Notes under the pieces: model-generated
What the model was told of the DNA's origin: nothing
The model's database searches: none
Seen by the model: only the letters and a program-made list of their open reading frames with translations
Shown: one piece after another, positions 537 to 27,229 of the stretch
How positions within the stretch are numbered: position 1 is the stretch's first letter
Layout of the letters: every line of letters begins with the position of its first letter
Translations under genes and position numbers: made by a program
Origin: Aestuariivirga litoralis
Lineage (GTDB): Bacteria; Pseudomonadota; Alphaproteobacteria; Rhizobiales; Aestuariivirgaceae
Length of the DNA stretch: 64,000 nucleotides
NCBI RefSeq assembly: GCF_003234965.1
Contig: NZ_QKVK01000005.1
Coordinates: forward strand, 248,001 to 312,000
Reading direction: 5' to 3'

Positions 537-1649
537 ATGCGTGTCACGATCGAGAGGTCAGCTTTCCTCAAGGCGCTCACCCATGTGCAGAGCGTCGTCG
601 AGCGGCGCAACACCATTCCGATCCTGTCCAACGTGCTGCTGCAGGCGGGCGACGGCCAGCTGAAGCTGACCGCCACCGACCTCGACATCGAGATCGTCGA
701 AAGCGTGCCGGCCGAGGTGTCGAAATCCGGCGCCACCACCGTGCCGGCGCACATGCTCTATGACATCGTGAGGAAGTTGCCCGATGGCGCGCAGCTCGAA
801 CTCGAGCAGGCGGGCGACGGCCAGCGCGTGTCGATCTTCGCCGGCCGCTCGCGCTTTGCACTGCAGGCGCTGCCGCACGAGGATTTCCCTGATCTTGCGG
901 CGGGCGATTTCCCGCATCATTTCGCCATCACCGCCACCGACCTCAAGGGCCTGATCGAGAAGACGCGCTTCGCGATCTCGACCGAGGAGACGCGCTACTA
1001 CCTCAACGGCATCTATTTCCACGACGTGGCGGCGGGCAGCCTGCTGCGCGCCGTGGCGACCGACGGTCATCGCCTCGCCCAGGCGCAGATCGCCAGGCCG
1101 GACGGGGCAAAGGGCATGCCGGGCGTCATCGTGCCGCGCAAGACCGTGCTCGAAGTCGTCAAGCTGTTCGAGGGCATCGACGGTGCGGTGGAGGTTTCGC
1201 TCTCGGCCGCCAAGGTGCGCTTCGCGGCGGGCGACCTGGTGCTGACATCGAAGCTGATCGATGGCACCTTCCCGGATTATGAGCGCGTCATCCCGCGCAA
1301 CAACGACAAGAAGCTGGAGCTCGACACCAGGACCTTCGCCCAGGCGGTGGACCGTGTCTCCACCATCTCGCAGGAGAAGGGCCGCGCGGTGAAGCTGGCG
1401 ATCGGCGGCAACAAGGTGGTGCTCACCGTCAACAATCCGGACTCGGGTTCGGCGGAAGAGGAAGTGGCCTGTTCCTATGACGCCGACCCGCTCGATATCG
1501 GCTTCAACTCGCGCTACCTGATGGACGTGGCGGGCCAGATGAAGTCGGACGGCATGGAACTGCACCTCGCCGATGCGGGTTCGCCCACCATCGTGCGCGA
1601 CCCGACCGACGAGCAGGCCCTCTATGTGCTCATGCCCATGCGGGTGTAA
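537..1649 (+). CDS. dnaN: DNA polymerase III beta subunit (sliding clamp)
   Basis: The product is 370 residues, the usual length for the bacterial clamp, and starts with the typical MRVTIERSAFLKAL segment and ends with the typical YVLMPMRV tail. It forms a dimeric ring of three repeated domains per subunit that tethers polymerase III and other replication and repair proteins to DNA. The ATG at 537 gives the family-typical N-terminus. It lies between dnaA and recF, with only 9 bases before recF, suggesting co-transcription. Confidence 0.97.
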   Translation: MRVTIERSAFLKALTHVQSVVERRNTIPILSNVLLQAGDGQLKLTATDLDIEIVESVPAEVSKSGATTVPAHMLYDIVRKLPDGAQLELEQAGDGQRVSIFAGRSRFALQALPHEDFPDLAAGDFPHHFAITATDLKGLIEKTRFAISTEETRYYLNGIYFHDVAAGSLLRAVATDGHRLAQAQIARPDGAKGMPGVIVPRKTVLEVVKLFEGIDGAVEVSLSAAKVRFAAGDLVLTSKLIDGTFPDYERVIPRNNDKKLELDTRTFAQAVDRVSTISQEKGRAVKLAIGGNKVVLTVNNPDSGSAEEEVACSYDADPLDIGFNSRYLMDVAGQMKSDGMELHLADAGSPTIVRDPTDEQALYVLMPMRV

Positions 1650-1658
1650 GCCTCGTTT

Positions 1659-5245
<3,587 letters not shown>

Positions 5246-5464: not shown

Positions 5465-8326
5465 ATGTCGATCGTTTCGTCGCTGACCACCAGGCAGATC
5501 GCGACCCTGAGCACCACCGCCATCCGGGCACTGTCGACGACCGACGTACAGGCGCTCAGCACCACGCAGGTGGGCGCCCTGACCGCGGCGCAGATCAATG
5601 CCATGGAGACGACCGACCTCACCACCCTGGACACCGCCCAGGTGCAGGCGATCTCGACCACCGCCATCAAGTCGCTGATCGCGGCCACCATCACCAATCT
5701 CACCGACACGCAGGCGGCTTCGCTCACCACCGGGCAGATCGGGCTGCTGCAGGCCTATGCGGTGGAGGCGCTCGAATCGACCGACGTCCAGGCCTGGACG
5801 ACGACCCAGCTCGGCGCCCTCACCTCCCGCCAGCTTGCCGGGCTCACCACCACGGCGCTTGCCGAATTCTCGGATACCCAGCTTGGCCAGCTCACCTCCA
5901 CGCAGGTGCGCGGCCTGACCACCACCCAGCTGAACAACCTCGCATCCACCCAGCTCAACGCGCTGAACATCGCCGATCTCTCGGCGACCCAGGTTCGCGG
6001 CATGACCTCGACCGCCGTCGATGCCCTGTCGACGACCCAGGCGCAGGGCCTCACCACGTCGCAGATCGCGGTTCTCTCCGCCGCCGGCCTCGAGGCGCTC
6101 ACCTCGACGGAATTGCAGGGCTGGTCGACGACCCAGCTCTCGGCGCTCACCTCCCAGCAGCTGGGCGGCCTCACCACCACCGGCCTGGCCGATCTCTCGG
6201 ACACGCAGCTCGGCCTCCTGACCTCGACGCAGATCCGTGGCCTCACCACGCTGCAGCTCAACAATCTCGCCTCCACCCAGCTCAATGCCCTCGACGTGAC
6301 GGCGCTTTCCGCCACGCAGATCCGCGGCATGAGCTCGACGGCGATCGATGCGCTGTCCACCACCCAGGCACAGTCGCTCACCACCGCGCAGCTCGCCGCC
6401 ATCTCGGTCACGGGGCTCGATGCGCTGACCTCGACGGAGGTCCAGGGCTGGAGCACCACGCAGCTCGGCGCCATCACCTCGCAGCAGCTGGCCGGCCTCA
6501 CCACCACGGCGCTGGCCGACTTCTCAGACACGCAGCTGGGCCAGCTCACCGCCACGCAGGTCAAGGGCCTCACCTCCACCCAGCTCAACAACCTGGCCTC
6601 GACGCAGCTCAACGCTCTGAACGTCACCGACCTCTCGGTGTCGCAGATCCGCAACATGAGCGCCACGGCCATCGGCACGCTGACGACCACCCAGGCGCAG
6701 TCGCTCGGCACGCTGCAGATCGCCGCCCTCAGCGCAGCCGGGCTTGAGGCCTTCGACTCCACCGTGGTCCAGGGCTGGTCGACGACGCAGCTCGGCGCCA
6801 TCACCTCGCAGCAGCTCGCCGGGCTGACGACGACCGGCATCGCCGACTTCTCCGATACGCAGCTGGGCCAGCTCAGCTCGACCCAGCTGCGCGGCCTCAC
6901 CTCCACCCAGCTCAACAACCTGGCCACCACCCAGCTCAATGCGCTGGACGTGACGAGCCTGTCCGGCACGCAGGTGGCGGGCCTCAGCACCACCGCCATC
7001 ACCAACCTTACCTCCACCCAGGCCCGGGCCTTCACCGTCACCCAGGTCACGGCAATGACGGCAAGCGGGCTTGGCGCCGTTGCATCCACCGACCTGCAGG
7101 CCTGGAGCACCACCCAGCTCGGTGCCATCACCACACGGCAGATGTCGCAGCTCACCACCACGGCGATCGCCAACTTCTCCGATACCCAGCTGGGCCAGCT
7201 GACGTCGACCCAGGTGAGGGGCCTCACCTCCACCCAGGTCAACAACATCGGCACCACGCAGCTCAATGCGCTGAACGTTGCAGACCTCTCGACGGCGCAG
7301 ATCCGCGCCATGACCTCGACGGCGCTTGATGCGCTGACCACCACCCAGGCCCAGGCACTGACCACCGTGCAGATCGCCGTACTCTCGGCCACCGGCCTGT
7401 CGGCACTGTCGTCCACCGAATTGCAGGGCTGGTCCACCACCCAGCTCGGCGCACTCACCTCGCAGCAGTTCGTCGGCATCGCCGCCACCGAGGTCGAGGA
7501 CTTCTCGACGACCCAGCTTGCCAGCCTCACCTCCACCCAGCTGCGCGGCCTGACGGCAACCCAGCTGAGCGGCCTCACCAGCACCTATCTGCAGGCGCTG
7601 GACGTTGCCTCGCTCTCCACCCAGCAGGTGGCGGGGCTCGACACCACGGCGGCGGGCAACCTGTCCAGCACGCAGGTGCAGTCGCTCTCCGCCGGCCAGA
7701 TCGGCGCGCTGTCGGCCAGCGTGCTCTCCGCCTTCGGCTCCACCGACATCCAGGCCTGGAGCACCACCCAGCTGGGCGCGGTGACCGCCACGCAGCTGGG
7801 CGGCCTCACCACCACCGAGATCACCGACTTCTCGGACACGCAGCTGGGCCTGCTCAGCTCGACGCAGCTGCGCGGCTTCACCTCCAGCCAGCTCAACGCG
7901 CTGGACACCGCTCAGCTCACCGTGCTGACGGCGTCCTCGCTCTCCACCGCGCAGATCGCCGGCCTCACCTCCACCGCGCTCGACCGCTTCACCACGACGC
8001 AGATCGGCACGCTCGATGCCAGCCAGTTCCGCGCCATCACGCCTTCGGCCCTGGACAGCCTCGACACCGCCATCTTCTCGGGGCTGAGCTCGACACAGGC
8101 GGGGGCGCTCACATCGGCGCAGGTCGCAGCACTCAGCACCACCAACTTCGCCTCGCTGAACGAAACCACCGGCATCCCGTCGCTCGCCACCTCGGCGATT
8201 GCCGGCATCACCACCGACCAGATCGCCGCCCTGTCCTCGACCCAGGCCAACGCCTTCACCACCTCGCAGATCGGGCTGATGAGCTCCGACCAGCTCACCG
8301 CCCTCATCGTCGCCTCCAACAGCTAG
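5465..8326 (+). CDS. Ser/Thr-rich octapeptide-repeat protein (953 aa), function unknown
   Basis: Almost the whole protein is made of an eight-residue unit with consensus L-[ST]-[ST]-T-Q-[LVI]-x-[GAN]. From about residue 143 the octads are organised into a 109-residue higher-order repeat of 13 octads plus one 5-residue unit; one octad in each always begins with Trp (WSTTQL). No Cys or His, two Lys and two Pro are visible, and there is no obvious signal peptide or membrane segment. The octad fits a helix-capping pattern (hydrophobic staple plus S/T-x-x-Q capping box), so a solenoid of very short helices is possible, though a beta-solenoid cannot be excluded. ATG at 5465 has AGGAG seven bases upstream. 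The next gene, 18 bases on, is an OGT-type glycosyltransferase, so this Ser/Thr-rich protein may be its substrate (inference). Confidence 0.9.
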   Translation: MSIVSSLTTRQIATLSTTAIRALSTTDVQALSTTQVGALTAAQINAMETTDLTTLDTAQVQAISTTAIKSLIAATITNLTDTQAASLTTGQIGLLQAYAVEALESTDVQAWTTTQLGALTSRQLAGLTTTALAEFSDTQLGQLTSTQVRGLTTTQLNNLASTQLNALNIADLSATQVRGMTSTAVDALSTTQAQGLTTSQIAVLSAAGLEALTSTELQGWSTTQLSALTSQQLGGLTTTGLADLSDTQLGLLTSTQIRGLTTLQLNNLASTQLNALDVTALSATQIRGMSSTAIDALSTTQAQSLTTAQLAAISVTGLDALTSTEVQGWSTTQLGAITSQQLAGLTTTALADFSDTQLGQLTATQVKGLTSTQLNNLASTQLNALNVTDLSVSQIRNMSATAIGTLTTTQAQSLGTLQIAALSAAGLEAFDSTVVQGWSTTQLGAITSQQLAGLTTTGIADFSDTQLGQLSSTQLRGLTSTQLNNLATTQLNALDVTSLSGTQVAGLSTTAITNLTSTQARAFTVTQVTAMTASGLGAVASTDLQAWSTTQLGAITTRQMSQLTTTAIANFSDTQLGQLTSTQVRGLTSTQVNNIGTTQLNALNVADLSTAQIRAMTSTALDALTTTQAQALTTVQIAVLSATGLSALSSTELQGWSTTQLGALTSQQFVGIAATEVEDFSTTQLASLTSTQLRGLTATQLSGLTSTYLQALDVASLSTQQVAGLDTTAAGNLSSTQVQSLSAGQIGALSASVLSAFGSTDIQAWSTTQLGAVTATQLGGLTTTEITDFSDTQLGLLSSTQLRGFTSSQLNALDTAQLTVLTASSLSTAQIAGLTSTALDRFTTTQIGTLDASQFRAITPSALDSLDTAIFSGLSSTQAGALTSAQVAALSTTNFASLNETTGIPSLATSAIAGITTDQIAALSSTQANAFTTSQIGLMSSDQLTALIVASNS
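5555..7852 (+). repeat. Seven tandem ~327-bp higher-order repeats within the octad-repeat gene
   Basis: Equivalent points of the repeat start at 5555, 5891, 6218, 6545, 6872, 7199, 7526 and 7853. The first interval is 336 bases and the next six are exactly 327, because unit 4 is a full octad in the first copy and five residues in the others. A degenerate tail follows to 8326. The exact spacing points to tandem duplication with strong selection or gene conversion. Such an array is prone to copy-number change and assembly collapse. Confidence 0.93.
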
Positions 8327-8344
8327 CCGGGAGATCCTCCAGCC

Positions 8345-10324
8345 TTGCCATCCACCATCGCCGCGCTGTTTCGTGACGCAGACATCATCGAGAAGGCCGA
8401 AGGTGCCGCGGCTGCCGCCGAGCTCTACAAGCGCTGGATCGCGCTCAACCCGGACGACCCGCACCTGGCGCCGGCGCACTTCAACATGGCGGTGGTGGCG
8501 CAGCGTGGTGGTGATTCCTTCGCCGCCATCAACGCCCTGCGTGACGCGCTGCGCATCGACCCCGATTTCCACCCGTCCTACATCAATCTCGGGCGGGCGC
8601 TGGAGGACCAGGGCCAGGCCGGAGCCGCCGTCAGCCAGTGGCTGGCGCTGGTCAACCGCTTGCCGGCCCTCAACGGAACAACCCTGCGCCACAAGCTGAT
8701 GGCACTGCACCAGATCGGCCGGGTTCTGGAATCCAACCATGCCGATGCGGCGGCCGAAGATGCGCTGCGCCAGGCCATCGACCTGTCGCCGGAAAGCGCG
8801 CAGGCGGTGCAGCACTGGATTGCGCTGCGCCAGAAGCAGTGCAAGTGGCCCGTGGTGCAGGGCTGGGACGGGGTGGAGGCAAGGCGGCTCCTCGCCAACA
8901 TATCGCCGCTGTCGGCCGCCGTGATGTTCGATGATCCCGTCTTCCAGCTGGCCCGCAACGCCAGCTATGCGCGGCAGTCGATCGCGCGGCCGCCCGCACT
9001 CTTCGACCATGCTGCCCGCCGGTGCGAGCGGCCCGCGCGGCTGAAGATCGGCTATGTCTCGTCCGATCTCCGCGAGCACGCCGTTGGCTTCGGCCTGGCG
9101 GAGGCCCTGGAACTGCATGACCGCAGCCGCTTCGAGATCCATGCCTATTACTGCGGCATTGCGCGCGAGGATGCCACGCGGGCCCGGATCCATGCCGCGG
9201 TCGATGGCTGGACCGATATCACCGGCCTCACCGATGATGCCGCCGCAGCGCGCATTGCGGCTGACGGGATCGACATCCTCATCGACGTCAACGGCTATAC
9301 GCGTGATGCCCGCACGGCCGTCTTCGCACGCCGGCCCGCGCCCATCGCCGCCAACTGGTTCGGTTTTCCCGGCAGCATGGCGACACCCTATCACCATTAC
9401 CTCATCGCCGACGGCCATGTGGTGCCGGAGGGCCATGAATGCTTCTTCACCGAGCGGGTCCTGCGCCTGCCCTGTTACCAGCCCAATGACCGCAAGCGCA
9501 CGGTGGCGCCCGAGCCGCCGCAGCGCGCCGCTGAAGGCCTGCCGGAGCAGGGCTTCGTCTTCTGCTGCCTCAACGGCACGCAGAAGATCACGCCGCAGGT
9601 CTTCGGCGCGTGGCTGAAGATCCTTGCCGCGGTGGAGGGGAGCGTGCTGTGGCTGCTCGACTCGTCAAGCGAAACCAATGCCCGGCTGCGCGCCATGGCG
9701 GCGGCGGCGGGCATCGCGCCCGAGCGCCTGTGCTTCGCGCCGAAGCGGCCGAATCCCCAGCACCTCGCGCGCTATGCGCTGGCGGACCTGTTCCTCGACA
9801 CCTTCCCCTATGGCGCCCACACCACGGCCTCTGACGCCATGTGGATGGGAACGCCGGTGCTGACGCTGGAGGGCCGGGGCTTCGCGGCGCGCGTCTGCGC
9901 CGGGCTGGTGAAGTCGGCCGGCATGCCGGACCTCGTCTGCACCAGCCTCGAGGACTATGTCTCCCGCGCCGTCGCCATCGCGGAGGTGCCGGGTGCGGCA
10001 GCGGAATTGCGTGAACGGCTGAAAGCCGGCCGCGGCAATTCCATTCTGTTCGACACGGCGCTTCTGGTGAACAGCCTCGAGGCCCTCTATGACCGGATGT
10101 GGGAAGAGTTCCGCAGCGGCGCACTGCCGGTTCCCGGTCTCACCAACCTCACTGCCTATGAGCAGATCGGCCTTGCCCTGGTGGAAGGCCATGAAGGCGA
10201 CAGCATCCCGCCGCAGCTCTACGCCGAAGAACTGGCGCGCTGGTCACTGCATGAACCCCTGCCGCCGGATGGCAGGCTGCTGACTGCCGCGGCGGCACCG
10301 CCGCCGAGGCGCGCTGCCGCGTAG
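8345..10324 (+). CDS. TPR-containing O-GlcNAc transferase-like (SPINDLY/GT41) glycosyltransferase
   Basis: The 659-residue product has an N-terminal TPR region (about residues 20-175) and a GT41-type catalytic region from about 230 to 620. LKIGYVSSDLREHAVGF contains H245, at the place of the catalytic-region His of human OGT. FCCLNGTQKI contains K414, matching the UDP-binding Lys of OGT. HTTASDAMWMGTPVLTL is the nucleotide-sugar binding segment. Family members transfer a sugar, usually GlcNAc from UDP-GlcNAc, to Ser/Thr of proteins. Start TTG at 8345 is chosen because GGGAG lies about 11 bases upstream and the next Met would cut into the first TPR. It follows the Ser/Thr-rich repeat gene by 18 bases, so the two are probably co-transcribed. 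Donor and acceptor are unproven. Confidence 0.88.
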   Translation: MPSTIAALFRDADIIEKAEGAAAAAELYKRWIALNPDDPHLAPAHFNMAVVAQRGGDSFAAINALRDALRIDPDFHPSYINLGRALEDQGQAGAAVSQWLALVNRLPALNGTTLRHKLMALHQIGRVLESNHADAAAEDALRQAIDLSPESAQAVQHWIALRQKQCKWPVVQGWDGVEARRLLANISPLSAAVMFDDPVFQLARNASYARQSIARPPALFDHAARRCERPARLKIGYVSSDLREHAVGFGLAEALELHDRSRFEIHAYYCGIAREDATRARIHAAVDGWTDITGLTDDAAAARIAADGIDILIDVNGYTRDARTAVFARRPAPIAANWFGFPGSMATPYHHYLIADGHVVPEGHECFFTERVLRLPCYQPNDRKRTVAPEPPQRAAEGLPEQGFVFCCLNGTQKITPQVFGAWLKILAAVEGSVLWLLDSSSETNARLRAMAAAAGIAPERLCFAPKRPNPQHLARYALADLFLDTFPYGAHTTASDAMWMGTPVLTLEGRGFAARVCAGLVKSAGMPDLVCTSLEDYVSRAVAIAEVPGAAAELRERLKAGRGNSILFDTALLVNSLEALYDRMWEEFRSGALPVPGLTNLTAYEQIGLALVEGHEGDSIPPQLYAEELARWSLHEPLPPDGRLLTAAAAPPPRRAAA

Positions 10325-10354
10325 CGCTGGGCGCGGCGCCCCCGCTGCCGCGTG

Positions 10355-11323
10355 CTAGAGCAGTCCGAGCAGGGCCCGCGCTGCCTGCTCGTCGGTCACC
10401 AGCGTGTTGCAGCCGATGCTCCGGTGCACGGCGAGGATCGCCGCCGCGCGCTCCTGCCCACCACTCGCCAGCACCTTGTGCGGCGCCGCCTTCAGCGTCT
10501 CGACCCCGACGGACATGATGCGCTCATTGATCGGGTGATCGACCAGCTGCCCCTGCGCGTCGATGAAGTTGCACATGATGTCCGCCACGCAACCGGCCCG
10601 CAGCAGCTGGGCCGCCTCCTCATCCGTGATCAGCTGGCGCACCAGCGAGCCGGAGCTCTCCTTCAGCCCGCCCGCACTCACCACCGCGAGGTCGAGCGAC
10701 TGGGCAAGCCCGCGCAAGCGCGCGATGCCACGGTCCGCCATCAGCCGCGCACGCGTCTCCGCACTGTCCACGACCAGCGGGGCGGGGAACAGGAAGCACT
10801 CCGCCTGCAGCGCGCTCGCCAGCCGCCAGGCGAATTCGAAGGGGTTGGCGAATTGCGTCTCGACAGCACCGCCCATCAGCGACATCACCTTCACGCCCTG
10901 CCGTTTTGGCGGATTGAAGCTTTCGAGTGCGGCACTGAGCGTGCGGCCCCAGCCGACGCCGATAGTCATGCCGTCCGTCACCGCGTCCGACAGCAGGCGG
11001 CCGAGCGCCAGCCCCACCGCGCGCCGCGTGCCCTCGCCATTGGCAGGCGACGGCACCACGATGGCCTCGTCGAGACCCAGCGCCCGTTCGAGGCGGATCG
11101 AGAGTTCGGCGAGGTCCGGCACCCGGTCCTCGATGGTGATCCGCACCTCGCCGCGCTGCCGCGCCTCCTCGAGCAGGCGGATGACGGTGGAGCGGCCAAT
11201 GCCCAGCTGTTCCGCCACCTCCGACTGGGTGAAGCCGAAGGCGTGGTAGAGCCAGGCCGCGCGCAGCCGCAGCGCCGCGTCGTCTGCCAGGGCCGCGCCT
11301 GCATTGCGCTTCAGCTTGGCCAT
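10355..11323 (-). CDS. SorC/DeoR-type sugar-binding transcriptional regulator
   Basis: The 322-residue product has an N-terminal helix-turn-helix (FTQSEVAEQLGIGRSTVIRLL, about residues 31-51) and a large C-terminal effector domain of the SorC/CggR class with MTIGVGWGRTL and the closing VTDEQAARALL segment. Such regulators bind phosphorylated sugars or related small metabolites. It is the last gene of a minus-strand operon, starting 3 bases after the stop of the alpha/beta hydrolase gene, and probably controls that operon. The substrate cannot be read from sequence. Confidence 0.85.
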   Translation of the reverse strand: MAKLKRNAGAALADDAALRLRAAWLYHAFGFTQSEVAEQLGIGRSTVIRLLEEARQRGEVRITIEDRVPDLAELSIRLERALGLDEAIVVPSPANGEGTRRAVGLALGRLLSDAVTDGMTIGVGWGRTLSAALESFNPPKRQGVKVMSLMGGAVETQFANPFEFAWRLASALQAECFLFPAPLVVDSAETRARLMADRGIARLRGLAQSLDLAVVSAGGLKESSGSLVRQLITDEEAAQLLRAGCVADIMCNFIDAQGQLVDHPINERIMSVGVETLKAAPHKVLASGGQERAAAILAVHRSIGCNTLVTDEQAARALLGLL

Positions 11324-11326
11324 GGC

Positions 11327-12097
11327 TCAGCCACCCACGCGCGTGATGAAGGCGGTGATGGCAGCATTCACCTGGCGTGCCGCCTCGACATGCGGCAGGT
11401 GGCCGGCCTCGGGGATCACCAGCTGCTGGCCCCCGAAGGCCGCGAGGGCAGCCGGGCTCGGCGGGTTGATGGCATCCGCGCCACCGAAGATGACGAGGCG
11501 CGGCAGGCCCGTCGCCGCGATGAGCCGGGCGGCTTCGCCCAGCTGCTCCTCATGTGCCTCCACGCCCTTTGCGATGGCGCGCAGTGCCTCGCGGGCACCG
11601 GTGCGCGAAAGTTGCTCCAGCACGCGGGCAATGGTGAAGCGGTTGATGAGCAGCGGCTTGGAGACGAGCTTCTGCAGCAGCGCCTCTGCCTCTTCCTTGG
11701 TCGCAAGGTCCGGGAAGCGCGCCAGGAAGTCATGGTCGATCGCGTGGCCGAGACCGGCGGGTGCGAGGAGCGTCAGCGAGCGCACGCGCTCCGGCTGGCC
11801 CAACGCCATCAGCATGGCAATGCTGCCGCCCAGCGAATGGCCAAGCAGGTGCACGGGGCCCATCCCCTGCGCATCGAGTGCCGCCGTCACCGCCCCGGCG
11901 AGTGCCGCCGCGCTGCCATCCCCGGCATCGGCGGCAAGCGAGTCCCCATGCCCCGGCAGGTCGAGGGAATGGACGCGCGCCACCTCCATCAGCGCGGGCG
12001 AGGTGCCCGCCCAGGACAGGCGGTCGGAGCCGAAGCCGTGGATCAGCACGAGATCCGGCCCCTCGCCACCCAGCGTCTTGAAGGTGAGGCCTTGCAT
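11327..12097 (-). CDS. Alpha/beta hydrolase resembling the catalytic half of AcoC-type E2
   Basis: The 256-residue product is an alpha/beta hydrolase with oxyanion segment LIHGFGSD, nucleophile elbow GHSLGG, an acid in FGGADAINPP and His in AGHLPH. In acetoin dehydrogenase E2 (AcoC) a lipoyl domain is fused to an alpha/beta hydrolase domain; here the same two parts are encoded by adjacent genes that overlap by one base (TGATG at 12099-12095). ATG at 12097 is preferred to the GTG at 12100. It lies downstream of a lipoyl protein and a fused E1, so a role in acyl transfer or hydrolysis in that complex is likely. An unrelated esterase remains possible. Confidence 0.8.
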   Translation of the reverse strand: MQGLTFKTLGGEGPDLVLIHGFGSDRLSWAGTSPALMEVARVHSLDLPGHGDSLAADAGDGSAAALAGAVTAALDAQGMGPVHLLGHSLGGSIAMLMALGQPERVRSLTLLAPAGLGHAIDHDFLARFPDLATKEEAEALLQKLVSKPLLINRFTIARVLEQLSRTGAREALRAIAKGVEAHEEQLGEAARLIAATGLPRLVIFGGADAINPPSPAALAAFGGQQLVIPEAGHLPHVEAARQVNAAITAFITRVGG

Positions 12098-12336
12098 CAC
12101 GCCTCGTCGATGACGGCGAGAACGTCGCCCACGCTCGCGATCTCGTCCGCCGGCACGCGGATTTCCTTCAGCGTGCCGGAGGCCGGCGCCTCGATTTCCA
12201 TGGTGAGCTTGGGCGTGGTGATGGTCAGCAGCATCTCGCCCTTCTCCACCTTGTCGCCCGGGCCCTTCGACCAGTAGTCGATCTGGGCCTCGGTGATCTC
12301 GTTGCCAAGCTGCGGCATCACGACGTCGGTGCTCAT
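12097..12336 (-). CDS. Stand-alone lipoyl (biotinyl/lipoyl-attachment) domain protein
   Basis: The 79-residue product is a complete lipoyl domain and nothing else. The modified lysine is predicted to be K43 in TITTPKLTMEIEAP. The start at 12336 has a near-perfect AGGAGGACAG ribosome binding site; an upstream in-frame start at 12381 would overlap the E1 gene and is unlikely. As a swinging-arm carrier it would shuttle the acyl group made by the adjacent E1. It has no E3-binding or acyltransferase domain, which a canonical E2 would have. The E3 (dihydrolipoamide dehydrogenase) is not in the window. Confidence 0.88.
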   Translation of the reverse strand: MSTDVVMPQLGNEITEAQIDYWSKGPGDKVEKGEMLLTITTPKLTMEIEAPASGTLKEIRVPADEIASVGDVLAVIDEA

Positions 12337-14850: not shown

Positions 14851-14948
14851 AAATGTCTCGCAACATGCCAGCCCCGACCGGCCGCGGGGGCGAGACACCG
14901 GGCGCTCCCGTGCTAAGGTCATGAAAAATAGCGTTGATGGGGGATTCG

Positions 14949-16106
14949 ATGGGGAACGCACTGCCGACGGCCACGCTGGACAATTGGCGCGAACATCCGT
15001 TCAGCGTCTGGGGCTTCACCCATGTTGACAGCCTGGTCCCGGTCGCGCCCATCCCCACCGCGCCGCCGCCCTCCGCCCTGCGCCGCGGCAAGGAGCTGGA
15101 TTTGGCCCGGCTGGCCATCGTCTGGGCCGGCAGCCGCCGCAGCGCCGAGGCCGCGCTGGAGGAAACCCACACCGACGGCTTCATGGTGCTGAAGGACGGC
15201 GAGGTGGTGGCCGAGCGCCTCATCAACCAGACCGCCAGCGACCGCCACATCGTCTTCTCGGTCAGCAAGTCGATCACCGCCGTGCTCGCCGGCATCCTGG
15301 TGCAGCAGGGCAAGCTCGATCCGGAGGCGCCCGTGTCGCGCTACGTGCCGGAGGTCGAGGGCTCGGCCTATGCCGACGCCACGCTGCGCCATGTGCTGGA
15401 CATGGCGGTCAGCATCCGCTTCGTCGAGGATTATCTCGACCCGCAGGGTGATGTCGCCCGCTACCGCGCCGCCATGGGCTGGAACCCGCCGGGGGCGATC
15501 GCCAGTGCCGATGGCATCAATGCCTTCGTGACGAGCCTGCCCAAGGCGGAGCATCCGCATGGCAGCCGCTTCCATTACGTCTCGCCCAACAGCGACCTGC
15601 TCGGCTGGATCCTCGAGCGTGCGGCGGGCGAGAATTTCGCCAGCCTGCTCTCCCGCCTCATCTGGCAGCCCATGCACATGGCGCAGGAGGCCTTCGTGAC
15701 GGTCGATCGCCATTGTGCCCCGCGCACGGCAGGCGGCATCTGCACCAGCTTGGGCGATCTCGCACGCTTCGGCGAGATGATGCGCAACAAGGGCCGCTTC
15801 AACGGCCAGCGCATCGTGCCGGAGGAGTGGATCAACGACATCCTGCACAAGGGCGACCATGCCCAGTGGTCGCGCGGCGAGATGGTGAACCTCTTCCCCG
15901 ATGGCCGCTACCGGTCCAAGTGGTACGTGCCGGATCCCAACTCCAGCGTGCTCTGCGCCATCGGCATCCATGGCCAGTGGATCTATGTCGATTACGATGC
16001 CGGCATGGTGGCGGTGAAGCAGTCCTCCCAGCCCATCCCGGCAGACGAGGCCCTGGACAATCTCACCTATGCGATGTTCCAGGCCATCGCCGATGAACTC
16101 AGATGA
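14949..16106 (+). CDS. Beta-lactamase-fold serine hydrolase (EstB/NylB-like)
   Basis: The 385-residue product has the class C beta-lactamase/penicillin-binding fold with S-x-x-K in FSVSKSITAVLAG and a Tyr in FHYVSPNSDLL. The C-terminal RTAGGICTSLGDLARFGEMM is typical of the esterase and 6-aminohexanoate-dimer hydrolase branch. ATG 14949 has GGGGGA four bases upstream; in-frame TTG 14934 and ATG 14937 are less good. Its stop overlaps the start of the next gene by four bases (ATGA), so the two are an operon. Likely hydrolyses an ester or amide; the substrate is unknown. Confidence 0.82.
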   Translation: MGNALPTATLDNWREHPFSVWGFTHVDSLVPVAPIPTAPPPSALRRGKELDLARLAIVWAGSRRSAEAALEETHTDGFMVLKDGEVVAERLINQTASDRHIVFSVSKSITAVLAGILVQQGKLDPEAPVSRYVPEVEGSAYADATLRHVLDMAVSIRFVEDYLDPQGDVARYRAAMGWNPPGAIASADGINAFVTSLPKAEHPHGSRFHYVSPNSDLLGWILERAAGENFASLLSRLIWQPMHMAQEAFVTVDRHCAPRTAGGICTSLGDLARFGEMMRNKGRFNGQRIVPEEWINDILHKGDHAQWSRGEMVNLFPDGRYRSKWYVPDPNSSVLCAIGIHGQWIYVDYDAGMVAVKQSSQPIPADEALDNLTYAMFQAIADELR

Positions 16107-17710
16107 GTGCTGACCGCAGCGAGGCCTGGCGGCGCGAGGCGGTACTCGGCATCTATGCCGAGCGGCCCTTCCGCGAGCCACCGGCGCAGCCGCGCATCTG
16201 GAGCTATTGCGACCAGCTCTCCTATGCACCGGGCGAGACGGTGAAGGTCAGCATCTGCACCAATGCGGATCTTTGCGACGTCGACGTCATCCGCGATGGC
16301 CACACGCCGGAAAGGGTCTTCTCGCGTTCGGATCTTCGCGGCGCGTGGCACGACACGCCGAATGATTGCTCCGTCGTGGGCTGCGGCTGGCCCGTCTCGC
16401 TCGAAATCCCCGTGGCGCCGGACTGGCCCTCGGGCGGCTACATCCTGCGCACCCGCGTCGACGGTGACATGCACGAGCATTTTTTCATCGTCCGCCCGCG
16501 TGACGGCATCGACAGGCGCGGCCGCCTGCTGCTCATTGCCGCCACCGCCACCTGGACGGCCTATAATGACTGGGGCGGCTCCAATCATTACCAGGGCTAT
16601 TGCGGCCCGAAGGGCGACCGCTTCTCGCCCGTGCTTAGCACGCAGCGCCCCTTGGCCAAAGGTTTCGTCTCGCTGCCGCCGGACGCACCGCGCGCCGTGT
16701 TGCTGGATGATCCGCCGATCAATTCGGAGCCCCGCTACCCGCACATGGAATGGGCCTATGCCAACGGCTATTCCAAGAAATACATGTCATCGGGCTGGGC
16801 CAGCTTCGAGCGCCACTTCGTCACCTGGGCGGAAGCCGAGGGCTATGCACTCGACATCATCAGCCAGACCGACCTGCAGTATCGCCCGCGTCTGATCGAG
16901 GGCTATTCCTGCATCGCGCTCGTCGGCCATGACGAATACTGGTCCTGGGAGATGCGCGACGCCATCGATGCCTGGGTGGAGAAGGGCGGCCGCATCGCCC
17001 GCTTCGCCGGCAATTTCATGTGGCAGATCCGCCTCTCGGACGAAGGCCGCACCCAGACCTGCTACAAATACATCGCGCGCGACGAAGACCCCTTCATGCA
17101 GGAGGGACCGCGCGAGCGCGTGACCGAATCCTGGGAGGCCCCCGAGATCGGCCGGCCCGGCGCCGCGAGCTTCGGCCTCAATGCCACCCACGGCCTTTAT
17201 GCCAGCTGGTCCGGCTGCAGCCCGCGCGGGGCCAAGGGTTTCCCTGTCTACCGGCCGGAGCACTGGGCTTTCGCCAACACCGGCCTCTATTACGGTGACA
17301 TCCTCGGCGGTGCTTCGCGCATCTTCGGCTACGAGGTCGATGGGCTTCCTTACGAAATCCGCGGCGGCCTGCCCCATGTGGCCGATCCGTCACTCGCGCC
17401 CGAAGGGATCGAGATCCTCGCCCTCGGCCTCGCGGCGACGATCGAGGAAGGCTCGACCATCCTTCCCGGCCGCAGCTTCCTCGGGACCGAGGACGGTGAA
17501 TATGTCGCCTCGGTGCTCACCGGCCGCAAGGATACGGCGGCGATCGAGGCCACCAAGCGCGGCTGCGGCATGATCGTGCATTTTCCGAAGGGCAGGGGCG
17601 AGGTCTTCCACGCCGGCTCCAGCGACTGGATCATCGGCCTCACCCGCAAGGATGAGATCGTCGCAATGGTCACCCGCAATGTGCTGAATAGGTTTCTAGT
17701 TTCTCGATAG
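16103..17710 (+). CDS. N,N-dimethylformamidase large-subunit-like protein
   Basis: The 535-residue product resembles the large (beta) subunit of N,N-dimethylformamidase in its C-terminal two thirds: WTAYNDWGGSNHY, ALVGHDEYWSWEMRDAIDAW, a central GGRIARFAGNFMWQIR and a final VFHAGSSDWIIGL. The N-terminal 130 residues look like the beta-rich domain seen in this family. The known enzyme hydrolyses dimethylformamide with an iron centre and needs a small subunit; no small-subunit gene lies here. Instead the partner is a serine hydrolase overlapping by 4 bases. The true substrate is therefore open. The downstream flank turns abruptly AT-rich at about 17700. Confidence 0.75.
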   Translation: MSADRSEAWRREAVLGIYAERPFREPPAQPRIWSYCDQLSYAPGETVKVSICTNADLCDVDVIRDGHTPERVFSRSDLRGAWHDTPNDCSVVGCGWPVSLEIPVAPDWPSGGYILRTRVDGDMHEHFFIVRPRDGIDRRGRLLLIAATATWTAYNDWGGSNHYQGYCGPKGDRFSPVLSTQRPLAKGFVSLPPDAPRAVLLDDPPINSEPRYPHMEWAYANGYSKKYMSSGWASFERHFVTWAEAEGYALDIISQTDLQYRPRLIEGYSCIALVGHDEYWSWEMRDAIDAWVEKGGRIARFAGNFMWQIRLSDEGRTQTCYKYIARDEDPFMQEGPRERVTESWEAPEIGRPGAASFGLNATHGLYASWSGCSPRGAKGFPVYRPEHWAFANTGLYYGDILGGASRIFGYEVDGLPYEIRGGLPHVADPSLAPEGIEILALGLAATIEEGSTILPGRSFLGTEDGEYVASVLTGRKDTAAIEATKRGCGMIVHFPKGRGEVFHAGSSDWIIGLTRKDEIVAMVTRNVLNRFLVSR

Positions 17711-25868: not shown

Positions 25869-26311
25869 CTTGGTCTCCGAACGGTGGGTGATTGCGAGAT
25901 GCGAGTTCTGTCATTTTTCAGGGAACAGGAAGGTCAAGGCACACTGTAGACACCTGTCGTCATCAGAGTCCTTCTGACCGGACTGAACGCGATGACTGGG
26001 TTCATAGTCACTATTGAAATTGCAAGTAATAGTAGAAACACTGATTGGCAGGGCAGATCGCTCGTCTGTCTCCTGCATGCTCGGATATGAGAAGGGCTCT
26101 TGAGAGGGCATTCACTGGGCGGGAGGCTGTTCCCGTTCAAGGCCGGCACGCCGAACGTCCTCCTTCGCCTTCCGCATGGCGGGCGGCTGATATCGAAGGG
26201 GCATTTGCCGCACGTGCCTCTTCATTGTATCGATACCGCAGTTGCGCCAGGCCACGGTTCGTCGTGTCCCGCCGGAGAGTGCCCCCTGCAGTGCCCTGAC
26301 CTGTCCATTCA
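25869..26311. other. 443-base intergenic region without a convincing gene
   Basis: It separates the leftward choloylglycine hydrolase from the rightward acyltransferase gene. The half near 25,900-26,050 is relatively AT-rich and probably holds the divergent promoters. Short open frames on both strands (for example 26100-26315 plus) have no protein-like pattern and no clear ribosome binding site. A 16-bp tandem repeat begins at its right end. Confidence 0.5.
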
Positions 26312-26329
26312 ATGACCTGTCCATTCAAT
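26298..26329. repeat. Two perfect tandem copies of a 16-bp unit spanning a start codon
   Basis: The unit GACCTGTCCATTCAAT occurs at 26298-26313 and 26314-26329. Each copy ends with the AT of an ATG, giving ATG at 26312 and 26328 in different frames, because 16 is not a multiple of 3. Only the 26312 frame reads into the acyltransferase protein. Copy-number change by one unit would alter the start context and frame. Confidence 0.85.
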
Positions 26330-27229
26330 GACATCGCCTATCTGTCGGGCCTTTCGAACATCGGAACGCCAGAGATGGCAGAACATGGAGCGCTGGCGGT
26401 CCTGAAGCGCGCGGTCAGGGGCAGCGGGCACTATGATGGCGTTGGCCCCTGGCCCTATCTCTGGGTTGAATCGCCGCGGGACCTCGAGGTGCTCCGTGAA
26501 GGCTTCCGCCATCTGGTCACGCTCACGGTCGTCACTCAGCCCGGCTATGTTCATCCGGTGCAAGGCGGCGACACGTCATTCCTCAAGCACCATTTCGTCT
26601 ATGATCCCGCCTTGCCGGCCCCGGTGATGAGCAGGCGCACGCGGACGCGGATCGCAAGGTGCGAGGCCAGGGCGACCTTCCGGCCCATCACCGATGTCGG
26701 GAGGCGGATGGCGTGCCTCGCACTCTACAGGCGCCTCCTGCAGCGGCGGGGACTGACCGGCTGCTACGTCGATTTTCCGGACGATCACTTCCAGGGCCTC
26801 GCCTCGCTTGAAGCTGGCGTGTTCTTCGAAGTCGTTGATGCGGACGGACCGGGAGCCTTCTCCTGTGGCGTCGTTTTCAACGGGATCCTCCAGGTCCTGC
26901 ACATGGCAAGTTCGGATGAAGGCCTGCGGTGGGATGCCTCATATCTCCTGATGAAGGGCATGCAGGAGCATGCAAGAAGCAACCGGCTTCGCCTGATGAC
27001 GGGAGGCATGCCGGACACCGGGTCCCCCGGGCTCCGGCAGTTCAAGCGGAAATGGGCAAATACCCATGAGCCGGTCTACATCATGAAGATCATCAACGAT
27101 GCTGCCCTCTATCATGGGCTCTGCAATGGTGTCCTGCGATCGTCACGCTATTTCCCCGGCTATCGCGCCACGGCCGGCCTGGCCGCGATGGGTGGTCCCG
27201 ATGCATCGCTTCCGGGAGGTCCGTTCTGA
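26312..27229 (+). CDS. FemAB/BioF2-like GNAT-fold acyltransferase
   Basis: The 305-residue product resembles FemAB-type (BioF2-like) acyltransferases: a helical ALYRRLLQRRGLTGCY region, then a GNAT-like core with GAFSCGVVFNGILQVLHMAS, and a closing LRLMTGGMPDTGSPGLRQFKRKWA segment typical of the group. These enzymes acylate cell-wall or surface glycoconjugates or attach amino acids to them. The start is the ATG inside a 16-bp tandem duplication. Its stop overlaps the proposed start of the following glycosyltransferase-like gene, so the two likely act on the same polymer (inference). Confidence 0.65.
   Translation: MTCPFNDIAYLSGLSNIGTPEMAEHGALAVLKRAVRGSGHYDGVGPWPYLWVESPRDLEVLREGFRHLVTLTVVTQPGYVHPVQGGDTSFLKHHFVYDPALPAPVMSRRTRTRIARCEARATFRPITDVGRRMACLALYRRLLQRRGLTGCYVDFPDDHFQGLASLEAGVFFEVVDADGPGAFSCGVVFNGILQVLHMASSDEGLRWDASYLLMKGMQEHARSNRLRLMTGGMPDTGSPGLRQFKRKWANTHEPVYIMKIINDAALYHGLCNGVLRSSRYFPGYRATAGLAAMGGPDASLPGGPF

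Follow-up and report, generated by a model that had tools for sequence, protein, structure and literature searches.

A conserved gene pair suggests a GT41 glycosyltransferase with its own octad-repeat substrate

Does a glycosyltransferase of family GT41 act on the Ser/Thr-rich repeat protein whose gene lies next to its own? The question is posed by two neighbouring genes in a 64,000-nucleotide stretch of the Aestuariivirga litoralis genome (the whole stretch is called the window below), which belongs to a 4.23-Mb assembly of 26 contigs. The upstream gene encodes a protein made of eight-residue repeats (octads), and the downstream gene an enzyme that resembles O-GlcNAc transferase (OGT) and carries tetratricopeptide repeats (TPRs). 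Based upon the linkage of the two genes, the motifs of the enzyme, the register of the Ser and Thr residues and the genes nearby, we consider it likely that the GT41 enzyme has the repeat protein as its substrate.

The open reading frames (ORFs) of both proteins lie exactly where a first-pass annotation of this DNA had placed them (Table 1). The upstream product matches the ALTTAQ repeat family PF20080 in 28 stretches (E 6.9e-114; 371.7 bits against a gathering score of 26.4), and all 22 PF20080 matches found in its genome at E 1e-3 fall within this one gene. The annotation had described the protein as composed almost wholly of octads of the form L-[ST]-[ST]-T-Q-[LVI]-x-[GAN]. The repeat itself is real, since this strict motif occurs 11 times, compared with a mean of 0.017 and a maximum of 1 in 1000 shuffles. 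Yet it fits those 11 octads only, and it is a looser pattern that covers most of the protein (85 occurrences; mean 4.6 and maximum 11 in shuffles). Ser and Thr make up 302 of the 953 residues (32%), Cys and His are absent, and there are 19 Lys and Arg and 50 Asp and Glu. The octads are overlain by a second period of 109 residues (13 octads plus 5 residues), recovered by Tandem Repeats Finder (TRF) as a 327-bp unit and visible as an autocorrelation of 0.53 at lag 109. No signal peptide was seen by eye: the protein begins MSIVSSLTTRQIA, with octads from the start.

An AlphaFold2 model built with ten sequences (predicted local distance difference test score, pLDDT, 91.4; predicted TM score, pTM, 0.56) predicts that the octad protein is an alpha-helical solenoid, or screw. 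The model has 120 short helices, about one per octad, and 110 of the 119 successive helix starts are 8 residues apart; a Leu precedes each helix and an aliphatic residue lies within it. Ser or Thr occupies the helix cap in 78% of helices, the first helix position in 69% and the second in 74%, and a Ser/Thr stripe should therefore run along the predicted rod. Because the pTM is low, the overall path of the chain is trusted less than the local screw. Such a helical screw could be a rod-like scaffold; a filament is not implied by the model. Among solved structures, the best sequence match is HeliScrew4 (PDB 9zem; E 1.1e-7), on which our literature search turned up no paper. Its octads, of the type ALTPEQIA, are alike but more charged, with Pro and Glu. 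A Foldseek search with the octad model gave no global match, and HeliScrew4 was absent among the 50 matches listed. A leucine-rich-repeat (LRR) fold, raised by weak LRR_EndoS and LRR chain matches, was rejected because it runs counter to the all-helical model.

The downstream product matches Glyco_transf_41 (E 1.2e-67; 228.9 bits against a cut-off of 25), and both GT41 matches found in the genome at E 1e-3 lie in its gene. Its TPR matches fall within residues 21-158, where the structural model (pLDDT 80.9) has helices, and the best Foldseek match of that model is XcOGT (E 8.9e-31; TM score 0.82 by target). By sequence the enzyme matches XcOGT at 3.6e-78 and human OGT at 1.9e-82, the latter in part via the TPRs. 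H245, K414 and H492-T493-T494 align with motif residues of human OGT, and they are identical in 86 of 86 members of the enzyme's clade. Profile, alignment, fold and motifs all bear out the GT41/OGT type with H245 and K414 that the annotation had proposed and, judged by motif, the active site is complete. The TTG start is supported by two close orthologues (L062 and L064) that start at the same place. The nearest named relatives by enzyme are Aestuariivirga metagenome-assembled genomes, at 83-84% identity.

The annotation had suggested looking for conserved adjacency across Hyphomicrobiales, and had taken absence of linkage in relatives as the result that would speak against a pair. Adjacency is conserved, and extends past Hyphomicrobiales. 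Among 41 related genomes, the repeat protein occurs in 7 and GT41 in 9, and in 7 of the 7 repeat-bearing genomes the two genes stand side by side (G011, one of them, has its repeat gene divided between two contigs). A wider set comprised 81 loci of the enzyme subfamily, namely the best 80 of 385 relatives from genome contigs and one contig from a viral collection. By an octad detector (threshold 8; shuffled ORFs give at most 3), an octad ORF lies at -29 to 359 bp from the enzyme in 78 of the 81 loci, upstream on the same strand in 75 and divergent in 3. The three loci that the detector missed (L118, L146 and L128) have 242-921 bp of contig upstream, and a more sensitive repeat profile, trained on other loci, finds a cut gene end in L118 (4.4e-60) and L146 (8.7e-12), so that detector and profile together see the repeat in 80 of 81 loci. 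On plasmids, the repeat gene lies within about 6 kb of the enzyme in 8 of 8 loci inspected, which are 8 of the 12 best of 49 matching records, one being the same Niveispirillum locus as L074. The Shinella plasmid repeat is divergent in sequence and was missed by the detector but found by the profile. The genes themselves are divergently arranged in CCGE532 and Shinella, the repeat gene lies downstream of the enzyme in two Rhizobium plasmids, and secretion genes stand between the two in L074 and L076. Because the layout varies, the linkage is not merely frozen gene order, and selection for proximity is likely.

Record titles place the loci in Hyphomicrobiales, Rhodospirillales, kin of Caulobacter and Acetobacteraceae. 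In a sample of the class (387 genomes at E 1e-8, with up to 19 candidates for the repeat and 3 for GT41 scored per genome), the repeat was found in at least 7 genomes and GT41 in at least 137; 6 of the 7 repeat genomes also have GT41, G161 being the exception, and the pair lies within one 20-kb stretch in G000, G186, G211, G267 and G416, but not in G072 or G161. The enzymes in records labelled Desulfovibrio, Spartobacteria and Marinimicrobia (L146, L157 and L106) are nested within the alphaproteobacterial ones, for which horizontal transfer and wrong binning are suggested alternatives. One enzyme between two octad ORFs, a repeat-GT-repeat triplet, is seen in L072, L106, L130 and L161. On the Pseudoroseomonas cervicalis plasmid pL11-A (L198:579-5666), the repeat gene is broken into several reading frames, through either decay or errors in assembling near-identical repeats; the neighbouring genes for an ATP-binding cassette (ABC) protein, HlyD, the decarboxylase and two GT41 enzymes are annotated as intact.

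In a tree of 128 GT41 rows made by a quick method, the linked enzymes form one clade with a Shimodaira-Hasegawa-like approximate likelihood ratio test (SH-aLRT) support of 100, which contains 83 linked enzymes, the 3 detector misses and a second enzyme from one linked locus. Nearest to this clade, as its sister group, are the second enzymes from GT-GT tandems (that of L198 is not in the tree). Such tandem GT41 genes occur in L133, L142, L158, L074, L076 and L198, and their second members could be second-step enzymes. The repeat is present in 0 of 26 other GT41 loci, which were picked and not drawn at random, both by the octad detector and by the sensitive profile (0 matches, 1723 ORFs); the same profile does find the repeats of Shinella and G161. 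Six of these controls are GT41 matches among the 41 genomes that lie away from repeat matches, and 20 were chosen among the best-scoring GT41 rows of the class sample, with repeat-protein genomes left out except G072; L165, L168 and L177 have little flank on one side.

Genes for sugar metabolism and secretion lie near some pairs. A decarboxylase of the UXS type occurs in 17 of 81 linked loci, an FkbM methyltransferase in 8, a type I secretion system (T1SS) ABC transporter in 10 and HlyD in 11, each versus 0 of 26 controls, counted at one threshold per family with profiles that were built from the linked set and so favour it. At laxer cut-offs, ABC turns up in 5 of the 26 controls, and HlyD and the decarboxylase in 1 each. 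The decarboxylase is at most 477 bp from the pair in 12 of its 17 loci. Its name comes from the record of P. cervicalis, where a gene recorded as UDP-glucuronic acid decarboxylase shares one block with repeat ORFs, ABC, HlyD and two GT41 genes, and from motifs that we take to be those of this enzyme; two decarboxylases checked against NCBIfam did not reach the cut-offs. Across the 41 relatives, it is present in 7 of 7 pair genomes versus 9 of 34 others (at least 56% identity, E 1e-60; a fragment in G018, a copy cut by a contig end in G006 and one at 43% in G005 are uncounted), a comparison that ignores kinship and broken assemblies. A type I secretion context, with ABC and HlyD beside the repeat gene, is found in 10 of 81 loci and in two plasmid loci; the HlyD of L123 exceeds the TIGR01843 cut-off, and the FkbM protein of L136 also has TPRs. 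In two Rhizobiaceae plasmids (L203:12935-15398 and L205:12949-15423), a hypothetical gene (with a Methyltransf_FA match in L203) and glf (UDP-galactopyranose mutase) come after the enzyme, hinting at a galactofuranose-type sugar there.

How might such a pair work? The octad gene would yield a long rod of low charge in which each 8 residues form one short helix. The TPR half of the co-expressed enzyme would bind this rod in the cytoplasm, where GT41 would put single sugars on many of its Ser and Thr residues, probably before export. In some lineages, a UDP-glucuronate decarboxylase may supply a pentose donor (UDP-xylose) and FkbM may methylate the attached sugar. The type I secretion pair would then export the product without a signal peptide, giving a glycosylated rod at the surface or in the matrix. 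These steps are not equally probable. Export of the repeat protein is an even call, and nothing found in the window's genus points to it; the surface role is one that we infer. Xylose as the donor sugar is doubtful, the decarboxylase being a lead only. Taken whole, a widespread and undescribed O-glycoprotein system, in which GT41 acts on hundreds of Ser/Thr along a screw of 300 to more than 3000 residues that in some lineages bears an O-methylated pentose (xylose), leaves by type I export and forms a mucin-like surface rod, is a tentative picture that we hold to be possible.

The repeat protein could instead be a GT41 substrate that is kept inside the cell, where it would serve in the cytoplasm as a glycosylated rod or spacer. 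This is unlikely, though the strongest of the alternatives: it would suit the lack of a signal peptide discernible by eye, the lack of any secretion gene found adjoining the pair in the window's genus, and the 70 of 81 loci that have no HlyD or T1SS ABC of this kind in the available flank, but not the T1SS ABC and HlyD genes that do adjoin in those 10 loci, in Niveispirillum and in P. cervicalis. Exported repeat proteins usually carry little charge and no Cys, and in both respects the octad protein fits them. Less likely again is that the repeat protein is a partner of the TPRs, as a scaffold, an activator or a tether toward other targets, and not a substrate; across loci it ranges from 302 to more than 3000 residues with Ser/Thr steady at 24-36%, which suits a coat of acceptor sites better than a scaffold. 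There is also a precedent for an enzyme that modifies other proteins, with the repeat gene linked for another reason, in the FlmG of Caulobacter, which acts on flagellin (PMC7591256), and flagellin genes do lie near the pair in L096, L098, L124, L149, Shinella (by eye) and Pseudorhizobium flavum. However, flagellin genes show no enrichment (4 of 81 linked versus 3 of 26 control loci), and flagellin was rejected as a common target on that count, while the repeat gene is there in 80 of 81 loci; we consider this explanation improbable. We give almost no credence to an HMW1C-like N-glycosyltransferase acting on Asn, although HMW1C too is a GT41 enzyme with its own large exported substrate (PMC3012730) and N-x-S/T sequons number 1097 in all 83 repeat ORFs versus 838 in shuffles. 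The window's protein has no more sequons than chance would give (7 versus 9 expected), and the window's enzyme matches HMW1C-like enzymes at 7.9e-9 versus 3.6e-78 for XcOGT. An HMW1C-type enzyme was rejected on a score of 30.4 bits against the NCBIfam NGTferase equivalog cut-off of 1000 and on the presence of TPRs, which HMW1C lacks (PMC3012730).

We favour a dedicated enzyme-substrate pair because the linkage is near one-to-one and the active site complete, and because Ser/Thr, in register, account for one-third of the candidate substrate and some pairs have sugar and secretion genes nearby. That GT41 is the modification enzyme of its own substrate, the repeat protein, seems to us reasonably probable as an explanation of the whole. 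Several observations weigh against it, together with the bias of the neighbour profiles, the control matches at laxer cut-offs and the kinship left out of the genome comparison. L128 has no repeat in the 507 bp upstream on its contig by the sensitive profile. Because the 80 loci from genome contigs were retrieved by aligning to linked enzymes, the linkage is shown clade-wide and not GT41-wide. The counterpart of H558 in human OGT is His in 69 of 86 members and Gly in the window's enzyme. Repeat proteins stand without GT41 in the stretch read in L073, L075 and L080 (the genomes of L073 and L075 each also hold a pair), and in G161, which has a repeat ORF, no GT41 reached the threshold; the octad fold is therefore usable without GT41. 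The neighbour genes are confined to 10-21% of linked loci. Of the loci from the window's genus (L081-L087), none has a T1SS or FkbM gene next to the pair by the profiles, and L087 (the G004 locus) alone has the decarboxylase. A search for that particular T1SS ABC in the genus was negative too, the best match being 32% in the window's own genome and at most 34% in the genus (cut 1e-60; 26 candidates scored per genome), with the exception of one 243-residue ATPase piece at 45% identity in G021. What comes right after the window's pair is a sugar-binding helix-turn-helix (HTH) regulator and an alpha/beta hydrolase.

The octad proteins that stand apart from GT41 include a second ALTTAQ kind of about 1690 residues and 23% Ser/Thr (L075:8597-13666 and L080:9477-14552). 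In L075, whose record is also that of the Niveispirillum-type genome G186, the gene before the repeat encodes a 1741-residue protein kinase/AAA/GAF/histidine kinase. L078 was rejected as a repeat without GT41: its contig ends where GT41 would lie, and it may be the other half of L077.

Around the pair in the window are housekeeping genes and genes of other kinds (Table 1). In the relatives L082, L086 and L101, too, gyrB lies upstream of the pair, and ORFs like the two convergent genes come after it in L081, L083 and L086. An ORF at 10352-12277 (+) was rejected as a spurious frame, since it has no family match and the two opposite-strand genes there have clear Pfam matches. Farther along, at 14934-17710, a beta-lactamase-family gene overlaps by 4 bases a gene for a 535-residue DMFA2_C (dimethylformamidase beta-like) protein, and 26297-26332 is a perfect tandem of 2.2 copies of a 16-bp unit (TGACCTGTCCATTCAA).

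Table 1. The gene pair and its surroundings in the window
Feature	Position	Strand	Basis or remark
dnaN	537-1649		upstream of gyrB
recF	1659-2813		upstream of gyrB
gyrB	2813..5245	+	upstream of pair; housekeeping context, outside the system
Octad-repeat (ALTTAQ, PF20080) protein, 953 aa	5465..8326	+	ORF, Pfam match, model
327-bp super-repeat array within octad gene	5765..7897	+	TRF, autocorrelation
18-base intergenic gap with GGGAG stretch upstream of TTG start	8327..8344	+	sequence
TPR and GT41 OGT-type glycosyltransferase, 659 aa, TTG start	8345..10324	+	Pfam, alignment, model
Sugar-binding HTH regulator (PF04198)	10355-11323	other strand	convergent with pair
Alpha/beta hydrolase	11327-12100	other strand	convergent with pair

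How does the pair compare with known systems? The HMW1C gene adjoins that of its substrate. HMW1C of Haemophilus and Actinobacillus is a cytoplasmic GT41 enzyme with its own large exported substrate, HMW1A (PMC3012730), and in this the window's pair is like it. The two differ in that HMW1C is without TPRs and modifies Asn, and HMW1A exits by two-partner secretion, whereas the window's pair joins an enzyme of the TPR-OGT type to Ser/Thr-rich alpha-helical octads. XcOGT and TtOGT share the combination of TPRs and GT41 with the window's enzyme. In TtOGT of Thermobaculum the catalytic Lys is reported as conserved, and its authors found neither modified proteins nor in vitro activity (PMC4683255); in contrast, the window's enzyme has a conserved candidate substrate encoded adjacent to it. 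FlmG is a soluble enzyme whose TPR half binds its substrate in the cytoplasm (PMC7591256); the likeness is drawn from this binding, and FlmG differs in acting on flagellin with pseudaminic acid. Thus, a GT41 enzyme with its own large substrate (HMW1C) and TPRs that bind the substrate (FlmG) are known already. The first-pass annotation had known of no described system of this form, and one part of that needs correcting, since the octad is catalogued in Pfam as PF20080. The other part stands: our literature search found no paper on the ALTTAQ repeat, its function or its pairing with GT41.

For bacterial OGT homologues, whose targets are still being sought, one GT41 clade now offers one candidate substrate, seen in 80 of 81 loci. 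Because some hosts are culturable, with Magnetospirillum, Methylosinus, Hyphomicrobium and Phenylobacterium among the genera, the matter of targets is directly testable. The pair occurs in many soil and water bacteria and, if our reading of it is true, its product would be a mucin-like glycoprotein, alpha-helical in fold, with an octad as its building unit.

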